NCBI RefSeq assembly: GCF_014197855.1
Contig: NZ_JACIGJ010000011.1
Coordinates: 1-64,000 of the forward strand
Direction of reading: 5' to 3'
Length of the DNA: 64,000 nt
DNA from: Roseospira marina
GTDB taxonomy: Bacteria; Pseudomonadota; Alphaproteobacteria; Rhodospirillales; Rhodospirillaceae
The position numbers and the translations under genes were made by a program. The notes below the pieces were generated by a model. The model made no database searches, had not been told where the DNA came from, and saw nothing but the letters and a program-made list of their open reading frames with translations. Shown here piece after piece: positions 4,651-59,742 of this stretch (positions are counted from its first letter, which is position 1; the number at the start of each line of letters is the position of its first letter).

Positions 4651-5076
4651 TCAACGGTCTGCGGAGCAGGAGGCCGATTCGCGGCTCATGTAAGGCCGGT
4701 ACTTCATATCGTCGCCCAGGATATGGCCCGTCAGCCACTCCGACAGGAACTCGAACAGGTGCCGCGCGTTCTCCTCGTCCGGAGAGGCCTGGAACTTCTG
4801 CTCAAAGCTGACGATGCGCCGACGGATGTCCCGGTGGGTGCGGACGTGCGCATCCAGCTCCGGATAGCGCGTCAAGCGCATCAGGCGCTCCTCGCATTCG
4901 AAATGATATTCGGTGTACCGCACCAGTTCATGGACGATCGCCCTCAAGGACTCGCGCGACTCCCCGCCCACTATCACCTCATGGAGTTGGTTCAGAAGAG
5001 AAAACAAGCGCTGATGATCATGATCGAGGGCCTCGACCCCCACACTCATCTCCTCCGTCCATTCAATCACGGTCAT
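4651..5076 (-). CDS. Bacteriohemerythrin
   Basis: This 141-residue protein carries the full diiron ligand set of hemerythrins: His21 in DHDHQRLF, His58 and Glu62 in YHFECEE, His77 and His81 in HVRTH, and His118 with Asp123 in HILGDD. Such proteins bind O2 reversibly at a mu-oxo diiron centre and serve in oxygen storage, delivery or sensing, often in motile microaerophiles. It is a stand-alone domain without a fused chemoreceptor. The start was chosen at MTVIEWTEEM, the usual N-terminus of the family. It stands near a PilZ gene and fliN, but in a separate unit. Confidence 0.92.
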   Translation of the reverse strand: MTVIEWTEEMSVGVEALDHDHQRLFSLLNQLHEVIVGGESRESLRAIVHELVRYTEYHFECEERLMRLTRYPELDAHVRTHRDIRRRIVSFEQKFQASPDEENARHLFEFLSEWLTGHILGDDMKYRPYMSRESASCSADR

Positions 5077-5394: not shown

Positions 5395-5414
5395 ATTTTT
5401 TGCAGTGCAGCATA
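5395..5414. promoter_or_regulatory. Possible PhaR/AniA-like TGC-rich box upstream of the sRNA
   Basis: TGCAGTGCAGCA at 5401-5412, preceded by a run of T, contains the odd-centred palindrome TGCA-G-TGCA. TGC-rich boxes of this type are known binding sites of PhaR/AniA, the regulator of polyhydroxybutyrate granule genes. It sits about 35 bp upstream of the -35 element of the candidate sRNA. The match is partial and the role is an inference. Confidence 0.3.
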
Positions 5415-5448
5415 ATCCGAAGGCACTGTTATTTTTTGAATTTTTCGC

Positions 5449-5477
5449 TTTACACCGGGCGGACAATGCGTCATATT
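5449..5477 (+). promoter_or_regulatory. Sigma-70-type promoter of the candidate sRNA
   Basis: TTTACA (5449-5454, five of six consensus bases) is separated by exactly 17 bp from CATATT (5472-5477, four of six). It lies in an AT-rich stretch and would start transcription near G5485, just before the first stem-loop of the sRNA. Confidence 0.6.
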
Positions 5478-5484
5478 CCGCATT

Positions 5485-5581
5485 GCAGCACGGGGTCCCT
5501 TCGCCCCGCGAAGCCGTGTTGTGTATCTTGGACGTTTCCTCCCTAAACTTGGGCCGCGCGACAGCGCGGCCCCCTTTTTTT
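5485..5581 (+). ncRNA. Candidate trans-acting sRNA, alpha-r8/MmgR (suhB) type
   Basis: A predicted RNA of about 97 nt with three parts. First comes a 5' stem-loop: outer stem CAGCACGG/CCGUGUUG (5486-5493 with 5514-5521) and inner stem CUUCGC/GCGAAG (5499-5504 with 5508-5513). Next is an unpaired linker containing UUUCCUCCCU (5535-5544). Last is a strong terminator. As I recall, the 10-nt unpaired UUUCCUCCCU core is the hallmark of the alpha-r8 family that includes Sinorhizobium MmgR, which limits polyhydroxybutyrate accumulation. The CCUCCC segment is complementary to Shine-Dalgarno sequences, which fits translational repression of mRNAs. It lies alone in a 600-bp gap. The family call rests on memory of the motif. 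Confidence 0.75.
5551..5581 (+). terminator. Rho-independent terminator of the sRNA
   Basis: GGGCCGCGC (5551-5559) pairs over 9 bp with GCGCGGCCC (5564-5572), loop GACA, followed by seven T. No protein-coding gene on this strand ends nearby, which supports a separate small transcript. Confidence 0.92.
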
Positions 5582-5694
5582 GTGCCATCCTAGAACTTTG
5601 GGCACACTCGGCGCCGCCCCTTATCCACACACGGAACATCCCGCGACGCACCACGGACCAAACGCGACTCGTCCGAGTCCGAGCCGCGGGCCCG

Positions 5695-6069
5695 TCAATG
5701 GCGAACCGGATCGCGGACGCCGCCGTCTCGCGCCGCCTGATCGAACACGCGCTGTTCCAACCGCTCCAACAGCACGATCTGACGCTCGTCCTCGATCAGG
5801 AATCGCAACCCGACATGATCGCTGGCCACCCGAACGACCTCGGCACGGAACCGGCCCAGTGATCGGACATACACGATCGCATCGTCGCCGACCCTCGTGC
5901 GCAGAGCGGTGTCCGCCGCAAATCCAGACCCGGAAATATCCCGCAGGGGACACCGGACGTCGTATTGGGTGCTAAAAATCAGGGTGGCTGTTTCCTCGAG
6001 CTGCCAGCGTGGCAAACCGCGCCGATCCATCCGGCTCCGCGAAGCCCCCGGTCCACCATCGTCCTGCAT
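5695..6069 (-). CDS. PilZ-domain protein (cyclic di-GMP receptor candidate)
   Basis: This 124-residue single-domain PilZ protein has both c-di-GMP-binding motifs: RxxxR (Arg17 to Arg21 in RRGLPRW) and D-x-S-x-x-G (Asp44 to Gly49 in DISGSG). Strands such as RAEVVRVASDHVGLRFL complete the beta-barrel, and an alpha-helix ends the chain. PilZ proteins bind c-di-GMP and adjust motility, surface attachment or polysaccharide output. The start was chosen at MQDDGG, with GGGGAAGGG about 8 nt upstream. The gene lies 200 bp downstream of fliN on the same strand, which fits a link to flagellar control, but no shared transcript is proven. Confidence 0.88.
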   Translation of the reverse strand: MQDDGGPGASRSRMDRRGLPRWQLEETATLIFSTQYDVRCPLRDISGSGFAADTALRTRVGDDAIVYVRSLGRFRAEVVRVASDHVGLRFLIEDERQIVLLERLEQRVFDQAARDGGVRDPVRH

Positions 6070-6267
6070 GTCCGAACCCTTCCCCTGTCCGATCGGCCAC
6101 GCCGAGTCCTGGACATAGCTTGCGCTGTTCGAACCGACCGGGCAACGCCCTTGAGGTCGCAAAAAGACAACCGGTCATCTCGCTATCCAGGCAAGGCCGA
6201 CCGATGCGCGCTCACCCATGTGACCGGAGCCCCACAGCACGCGAAGCCGGGTCCCGGCGCAACCGAA

Positions 6268-24895: not shown

Positions 24896-25067
24896 GGCGA
24901 GATCACCCCGAAAGGCTGCGCCGACACCCCGTCCGCCAGGATACTTTCGACGGCGTCGGAATCGTGGTACCCAGGGCTTCTGCGGCAATGCAACATAAGC
25001 GGTAACCCCCTTGCCTCGCGGTAAGCGGGCCAGCATAGGCGGTTTCGGTGCCGGACCGAACCCGCCA

Positions 25068-58923: not shown

Positions 58924-58959
58924 GACTTTTCGACCTAGGCTCGGCATTGGGTAGTCCGA

Positions 58960-59084
58960 ACGGGGAGTAGCGACCGCCCATTGGCGGGAGCGTGTCAACA
59001 TACTCGCGGCACATCCGCGTGGCACGCTCGGCCTTCGCGAAGTCGGCCCCTTGGGGACGACTACGCGTGGTTTCGCGAGACCGT
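58960..59084 (+). ncRNA. yybP-ykoY Mn2+ riboswitch
   Basis: Conserved elements occur in order: GGGGAGUAGC at 58962-58971, GUCAACAUACUCG near 58993, GUGGCACG near 59019, and GCGAGACC at 59075-59082. These are the hallmark internal loops of the yybP-ykoY aptamer and are laid out as in the E. coli mntP leader. It senses Mn2+. The following 73 nt to the mntP start contain competing stems and the ribosome-binding site AAAGGA, so control at translation or termination is likely. Confidence 0.93.
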
Positions 59085-59157
59085 GGCACAAGCACACGGC
59101 CGCCAACACAGGCTGTGTGTTGCTTGGTGTGGCCACGCGTCGTAAAGGACCATCCCC

Positions 59158-59742
59158 ATGTCCCCTCTCGCCATCGGTATTCTCGCGCTCGGCATGTCCA
59201 TTGACGCCCTGGTTGCGGCGATCGGACGTGGCGCCTGCGGGTCGCGTCCGGGGTTCCTGGCGGCGTTGCGCACCGGCTTGGTGTTCGGGCTGGTGGAAGC
59301 CGTCAGCCCGCTCATCGGATGGGCCATCGGCATCGGCGCCAGCGCGTATGTCGCCCGCGTCGATCACTGGATCGCCTTCGTGCTGCTGGGCATCGTGGGG
59401 GGCCGCATGGTCGCGAGCGGCCTGCGGCGCGCCGACACGGACTGTGGCGACGCCGACCAGCCCAGCCGCGCCCCCCTGCACGCCGGCCTGCTGATGCTGG
59501 TCGTGACCGCCGTCGGCACCTCGATCGACTCGATGGCCGTCGGGGTCTCGCTGGCCTTCCTAAACGTCAACATCCTGCTCATCGCCGTGGCCATCGGCTG
59601 CTCGACGACCGTCATGGCGACGACCGGCATGCTGACCGGCCGCCTGTTGGGCACCCGGTTCGGGCGCAAGGCCGAAATCCTCGGCGGTGTCGTGCTGATC
59701 GGCCTGGGCAGCCACATCCTGGCCTCGCACATTCTGGAGTAA
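59158..59742 (+). CDS. mntP: Mn2+ efflux pump MntP
   Basis: This 194-residue protein has six membrane helices in two repeats. Acidic ion-site motifs are ALGMSIDALVAAIGRG (first half) and TAVGTSIDSMAVGVSLAF (second half), the paired Asp motifs of the MntP/YebN family. It exports Mn2+ to prevent toxicity. AAAGGA lies 8 nt before the ATG. The leader holds a Mn2+ riboswitch, which confirms the substrate independently. Confidence 0.96.
   Translation: MSPLAIGILALGMSIDALVAAIGRGACGSRPGFLAALRTGLVFGLVEAVSPLIGWAIGIGASAYVARVDHWIAFVLLGIVGGRMVASGLRRADTDCGDADQPSRAPLHAGLLMLVVTAVGTSIDSMAVGVSLAFLNVNILLIAVAIGCSTTVMATTGMLTGRLLGTRFGRKAEILGGVVLIGLGSHILASHILE

Follow-up and report, generated by a model that had tools for sequence, protein, structure and literature searches.

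We analysed a window of 64,000 nucleotides from Roseospira marina, by which we mean the whole stretch of DNA at its full length, and focused on a gap between a hemerythrin-domain gene and a PilZ-domain gene. The gap holds a predicted small RNA (sRNA) gene of the alpha-r8/MmgR family together with its promoter, its terminator and two palindromic boxes that resemble binding sites of PhaR (Table 1). The usual neighbour of alpha-r8 genes, a gene for N-formylglutamate amidohydrolase (FGase), is absent from the flanks, which are formed by the hemerythrin and PilZ genes; according to PMC12559287, the FGase linkage of alphaR8 is usual in most species and is not a defining feature. A hemerythrin-domain match is found upstream of the sRNA in all five congeners and at seven of the eight other loci tested in family f1 (together L018, L019, L021, L022, L024, L002, L006, L008, L010, L012, L016 and L017), and at the f1 locus L004 no hemerythrin gene was found upstream of alpha-r8. 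Elsewhere in the window, a Mn2+ riboswitch (RF00080, 50.3 bits, 58956–59151) is located directly upstream of a gene for an MntP-type manganese efflux pump (59158–59742).

Table 1. Genes and sequence elements at the sRNA locus (positions in the window)
Feature	Position	Strand	Details and basis
Hemerythrin-domain gene	4651..5076	-	PF01814, 66.2 bits; divergent; start inferred (MTVIEW...)
Distal PhaR-like operator ATTTTTTGCAGTGCAGCATAA	5395..5415	.	9-mer core 5401–5409; matrix score 31.6
Promoter TTTACA-17-CATATT	5449..5477	+	-35 at 5449–5454, 17-nt spacer, -10 at 5472–5477
Proximal PhaR-like operator ATATTCCGCATTGCAGCACGG	5473..5493	.	core CGCATTGCA 5479–5487; matrix score 15.5
Alpha-r8/MmgR-family sRNA	5485..5581	+	~97 nt, ends predicted; RF00519, fold, covariation
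5' hairpin	5485..5522	+	precedes the first Rfam-model hairpin; fold and covariation
Anti-Shine–Dalgarno core TTTCCTCCCT	5535..5544	+	sequence; alphaR8 core of 10 nt as given in PMC12559287; invariant in alignment A1
Intrinsic terminator	5551..5581	+	9 G-C pairs (5551–5572), 4-nt loop, 7 T
PilZ-domain gene	5695..6162	-	PF07238, 30.9 bits; convergent; start codon uncertain

The covariance model of RF00519 (suhB, described as mmgR RNA) matches the plus strand of the window at 5514–5587 with 52.3 bits (E = 6.9e-08), the gathering cut-off being 41 bits, and a genome-wide covariance search found this one match in the genome. All five congeners carry a match over the cut-off. Among 60 genomes (this one and 59 relatives), 53 have a match with E ≤ 0.001 and 28 one over the cut-off, and a sample of the class with 387 genomes, including the present one, yields 175 genomes with a match over the cut-off.

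The predicted RNA folds with an energy of -43.6 kcal/mol (z = -3.47), and one of 200 shuffled sequences was as low. In the fold, a 5' hairpin is followed by a linker that is mostly open and then by the terminator hairpin. Terminator-like sites occur in the shuffled region with a mean of 0.8, and the terminator is therefore not unusual by itself. The first stem of the Rfam model, a weak hairpin that precedes the core, has one non-standard pair out of four (two positions) in the cmscan alignment and is absent from the minimum free energy (MFE) structure of the predicted RNA, which has a longer hairpin further 5'. Since the score of the whole model passes, we keep the RNA in RF00519 as a structural variant. 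The 10-nt core UUUCCUCCCU lies in a single-stranded stretch, as alpha-r8 requires; in the MFE structure, seven of its 10 nucleotides are unpaired, and nucleotides 3–5 are engaged in a GGA-UCC helix of three base pairs.

We aligned 20 of 27 sRNA loci (alignment A1), the other seven being excluded for a divergent 5' end or because they belong to more distant families. In the consensus structure, 96.0% of cells are paired, compared with 60% at most in slid controls. Changes on both sides affect nine of 20 pairs (6.1 in shuffles) and 38 cells (11.8 in shuffles), and the covariation score is 0.362 (shuffles, 0.196; slid controls, 0.148 or less). Helix 1, the 5' hairpin, comprises eight pairs, of which five show both-side changes, and 91.9% of its cells are paired across the 20 sequences; helix 3, the terminator, is paired in 98.3% of cells, with both-side changes in four pairs. 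Covariation in these aligned loci thus supports both the 5' hairpin and the terminator as predicted elements.

A first-pass annotation of this DNA had proposed an alpha-r8/MmgR sRNA behind a TTTACA-17-CATATT promoter, with a nested 5' stem-loop, an unpaired linker bearing an anti-Shine–Dalgarno core and a 9-bp GC terminator followed by seven T, and had pointed to a covariance-model search and to the conservation of stem pairs in related genomes as ways of checking it. The search bears out the family assignment, the stem pairs covary, and the promoter, the 5' hairpin and the terminator were all recovered. The description of the linker holds in part: the core is present and the linker is mostly open, but the short helix described above covers part of the core. 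Judged by its sequence, the stretch encodes an alpha-r8/MmgR-type sRNA that is real in the evolutionary sense, and its predicted start at 5485 is plausible.

TTTACA-17-CATATT is the sole promoter-like match between 5200 and 5800 (mean of shuffles, 0.1), and the heptamer CTTTACA is invariant in an alignment of the six genus members. For the PhaR-like boxes, we scored positions with a symmetric matrix derived from 16 sites in S. meliloti promoters that are marked Efficient in EMSA, without the mmgR site. The 16 reference sites score 19.6–31.9, and the excluded site of S. meliloti mmgR itself scores 22.4. The distal box ranks first among 63,980 positions in the window and fits the S. meliloti motif WNWD2NYGCRNYGCRNH2WNW, as given in PMC12542648, completely. 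It ends approximately 35 bp upstream of the -35 element, where the first-pass annotation had placed a PhaR-type palindrome, and the claim is strengthened by conservation of the box in the genus and by its occurrence at phasin genes (see below). The proximal box, which had gone unnoticed before, overlaps the -10 and start region, with its core directly after the -10 element. It ranks third of 63,980, yet its score is lower than that of every reference S. meliloti site; it fits the published 21-mer save for the last two W positions, and the strict pattern does not match it.

The second-ranked site in the window (24978–24998, score 22.1) is situated between divergent genes for an IclR-type regulator and an HpcH/HpaI-family lyase. 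The best NCBIfam match of the former is BhcR, under the cut-off, and the latter is citrate-lyase-beta- or malyl-CoA-lyase-like. This PhaR-like site suggests a possible control of carbon assimilation by PhaR.

Both boxes of the sRNA gene are retained at six of six genus loci, at a spacing of 77–78 bp. In the genus alignment, the distal box, the -35 element, the proximal box and the sRNA form invariant islands, and the DNA around the boxes diverges. Beyond the genus, the promoter box and the upstream box are approximately 50 to 177 bp apart, depending on the locus, and for this reason we claim no fixed looping distance.

The gene for PhaR (PF07879) is present in this genome and in all five congeners, and in 54 of the 60 genomes overall. 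Both phasin genes of the genome have PhaR-like boxes. One of them has a pair of boxes 57 bp apart, the proximal one (ATATACCGCAGTGCAGCAAAG) following a -10-like ATATAC, as in the sRNA promoter. Upstream boxes are found at 10 of the 12 phasin loci of the six genomes, and the other two, in the fragmented assembly G005, are cut by contig ends. In the 4.6-Mb genome, the strict box pattern is matched 27 times, counted by strand, at 18 places, compared with 12 times for the reversed pattern, so that part of the matches must be due to chance. The distal box of the sRNA has the top score among these 18 places, three of which are found at the two phasin genes. We infer that PhaR controls the phasins of this genome.

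To see how widely the promoter box occurs, we surveyed 180 sRNA loci from the class for a YGCRNYGCR box 36–100 nt before the core. Five loci without a recognised core (L188, L208, L211, L229 and L237) and four whose register was wrong or duplicated (L250, L251, L254 and L255) were excluded, which leaves 171. The survey takes in class matches down to E ~1.2e-9 and a subset of the relatives' loci, and it leans to strong matches for that reason. The box is present at 119 of the 171 loci, in 112 of 150 genomes and in 47 of 60 family-level groups, whereas in dinucleotide shuffles it turns up at 12.2 loci and in 10.8 families on average, and at 20 loci and in 18 families at most. Boxes near the core are clipped by the promoter window, and a wider window raises the count to 48 of 60 families. 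Two flanking windows also exceed the shuffles (31 and 41 loci versus 7 and 11), an excess in keeping with further putative boxes upstream; 27 families have both a promoter box and an upstream box. By a coarse call with loose regular expressions, the box is placed right after the -10 element in 33 families and between -35 and -10 in 27. In family f1, all 20 loci examined have a box in the promoter window. Three genomes of family f52 carry three tandem alpha-r8 genes within ~600 bp, each with a PhaR-like box (L142, L143 and L172 in G275; L132, L171 and L176 in G085; L135, L151 and L182 in G194).

Weaker-scoring sRNA loci have the box less often (seven of 22 usable). This set came from 30 hand-picked genomes, and eight of the 30 loci, four of them from phaR-negative genomes, were dropped with a core that the script did not recognise. 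A box is present in 117 of 158 phaR-positive genomes (41 of the 158 are without one) and in six of 14 phaR-negative genomes, an association that is weak, with Fisher's p = 0.026 uncorrected for phylogeny and the 30 genomes hand-picked. Three of the box-less phaR-negative genomes (G045, G154 and G317) are also without a phasin match.

Families f57 and f121 had no box in the sRNA promoter window of the class survey. In these two families and in f38, f80 and f92 (nine genomes altogether), a box with the 1-nt spacer is found near the start at 17 of 21 phasin loci. The sRNA promoters of f38, f80 and f92, which are without the usual box, have a palindrome CGCA-NN-TGCG/A with a 2-nt spacer in a similar place (f38: L191, L184, L226 and L224; f80: L204, L196, L175, L173 and L174; f92: L163, L134 and L128).

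Phasin mRNAs were considered as direct targets of the sRNA, but we do not claim them as such, as the linker duplex energies of nine phasin leaders, with 300 shuffles each, revealed no consistent complementarity. The leader L042 of this genome stood out, with one of 300 shuffles as low; for the other eight, the count was 129 of 300 for the second leader of this genome (L050) and 42–150 of 300 for the seven congener leaders. Duplex energies for the whole sRNA are uninformative because they ignore internal folding. A genome search with TAGGGAGGAAA, allowing one mismatch at most, returned 17 places, one of which is the sRNA itself on the opposite strand. Among the 16 others, genes of the PfkB-kinase and DctP types (L335 and L336) are plausible candidate targets. 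Their matches are located just before the start codon, with 10–11 nt of complementarity; an equally low duplex energy was reached by 16 and 12 of 300 shuffles, respectively. At the long frames L338 and L339, the mismatch falls inside the core. For the PfkB and DctP genes, the congeners gave distant matches alone (20–44% identity). The matches to TAGGGAGGAAA in this genome (G000) divide into one forward and 16 reverse, an asymmetry that may be an effect of the tool.

Alpha-r8 sRNAs studied elsewhere are described as Hfq-dependent, limiting polyhydroxybutyrate (PHB) in S. meliloti or repressing transporters in Caulobacter. Our model starts from the family membership, structure, motif identity and conservation that we observe at this locus, and from the phaR gene and the phasin boxes of the same genome. 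In the reading that we favour, to which we assign a probability of about 0.84, a single-copy alpha-r8 gene with its own promoter and terminator is repressed by PhaR through two operators, and granules release the sRNA, which acts as a brake. Transcription of the trans-acting sRNA (MmgR/SisA family) would begin at a sigma-70-type promoter belonging to the gene itself and stop at the intrinsic terminator. The repressor PhaR, which PHB granules titrate, most likely occupies both the operator that overlaps the -10 and start region and the second operator, ~78 bp upstream; co-operation or looping between the two is something we can only infer. At low PHB, PhaR would keep the sRNA gene off, and as granules sequester PhaR, the sRNA would rise along with the phasins. 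Pairing of the UUUCCUCCCU linker with the Shine–Dalgarno regions of its target mRNAs, in which Hfq probably takes part, would let the sRNA slow down any further uptake or storage of carbon. Four points of this model are carried over by analogy from S. meliloti and Caulobacter: that PhaR represses the gene, that the sRNA depends on Hfq, that it pairs with targets and that it affects PHB. The reading in the first-pass annotation, a possibly PhaR-controlled alpha-r8 sRNA, is supported at the level of sequence.

Three other explanations have to be weighed against this model. Because the intergenic region also faces the divergent hemerythrin gene, the distal box could belong to that gene, the sRNA being regulated through the proximal box only, and the frequency of hemerythrin as a divergent neighbour in f1 fits this idea. 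We nevertheless consider it unlikely: the distal box is approximately 320 bp away from the inferred hemerythrin start, whereas its distance from the sRNA box is constant at all six genus loci, and second boxes precede alpha-r8 in 27 families (in a comparison that covered the boxes themselves).

Also improbable, and ranked behind the hemerythrin explanation, is that the alpha-r8 sRNA is genuine but a factor different from PhaR binds its boxes, or that the proximal box has been retained solely because the RNA needs it at its 5' end. The 5' strand of the RNA hairpin does include the right half of this box, but the left half is upstream of the predicted start; the families with a box between -35 and -10 (by the coarse call) have it outside the RNA, and the distal box is situated 78 bp upstream. 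A different factor would agree with the six phaR-negative genomes that keep a box and with the 2-nt-spacer palindromes of f38, f80 and f92, where most phasin loci tested have the 1-nt form. Against it, the same motif precedes the phasin genes here, and for S. meliloti, PMC12542648 describes it as the motif through which PhaR binds the promoter of mmgR. Finally, a chance hairpin with a chance motif resemblance and no sRNA at all, for which the GC-rich, terminator-like hairpins common in this region might speak, is highly improbable and is contradicted by the Rfam E-value, the covariation and the matches over the cut-off, which all congeners have and, in total, 28 of the 60 genomes.

The model of a PhaR-controlled alpha-r8 gene agrees with what is reported for S. 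meliloti. There, PhaR is described as binding PHB and being titrated by it, and EMSA places PhaR on the mmgR promoter (PMC12542648). According to PMC8401924, mmgR is under repression by AniA, and the levels of PHB and of phasin protein go up when the mmgR core is deleted. The PhaR–mmgR loop is therefore not new, since it has been published for that species (PMC12542648; PMC8401924). MmgR of Sinorhizobium meliloti (RF00519) and the sRNA described here share the 10-nt core, the terminator and a promoter-embedded PhaR (AniA) site, which is predicted in our case. They differ in length (PMC8401924 gives 77 nt for MmgR; our prediction is ~97 nt and includes a longer 5' hairpin) and in the position of the motif, which PMC8401924 places between -35 and -10 of mmgR, whereas here it follows the -10 element and a second, strong box is found upstream.

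The account in PMC12559287 names MmgR as the only alphaR8 member characterised before SisA and reports alphaR8 in all Alphaproteobacteria except Rickettsiales. Caulobacter crescentus SisA–D (alphaR8, PMC12559287) likewise have the core and the terminator; they pair with mRNA leaders and are sponged by CrfA, and SisA represses its target mRNAs through the 10-mer. The sisA gene adjoins the FGase gene (PMC12559287), whereas the sRNA gene here adjoins the hemerythrin gene; for sisA–D, the main text of PMC12559287 reports no common promoter motif and does not mention PhaR, in contrast to the PhaR-like boxes at our locus. PhaR/AniA phasin promoters are similar in their YGCRNYGCR boxes, which occur at both phasin genes here, with one box right after the -10 element, but those promoters drive protein genes and not an sRNA gene. 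What our analysis appears to add to the known circuit is how deeply the sequence elements are conserved, the second operator, the hemerythrin neighbour and a promoter-occluding box position that also occurs at a phasin promoter.

An abstract by Ceizel Borella (2018) is said to describe a TGC-N3-GCA dyad in other alphaproteobacteria, and the class-wide conservation may in part have been anticipated there. Our literature search recognised no paper on a promoter of this kind outside S. meliloti, and part of what we add may already be covered by Ceizel Borella 2018, Lagares 2016 and Lagares 2017. The main texts of a transcriptome paper on Magnetospirillum (PMC9549626) and an sRNA paper on Azospirillum (PMC7685610) leave suhB/mmgR unmentioned.

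On the sequence comparisons presented here, the Sinorhizobium circuit would extend to a purple bacterium and many of its relatives. We give slightly better than even odds to the broader proposal that control of alpha-r8 by PhaR is an ancestral alphaproteobacterial circuit and not a rhizobial peculiarity, with an operator that occludes the promoter and often a second one upstream. Since the promoter boxes are conserved over many families, we predict that the alpha-r8 switch is the state of the PHB granules. This prediction covers organisms for which we found no study, and a simple test is possible in any of them. If the circuit is ancestral, the PHB state would set the level of a global anti-Shine–Dalgarno sRNA across much of the class.
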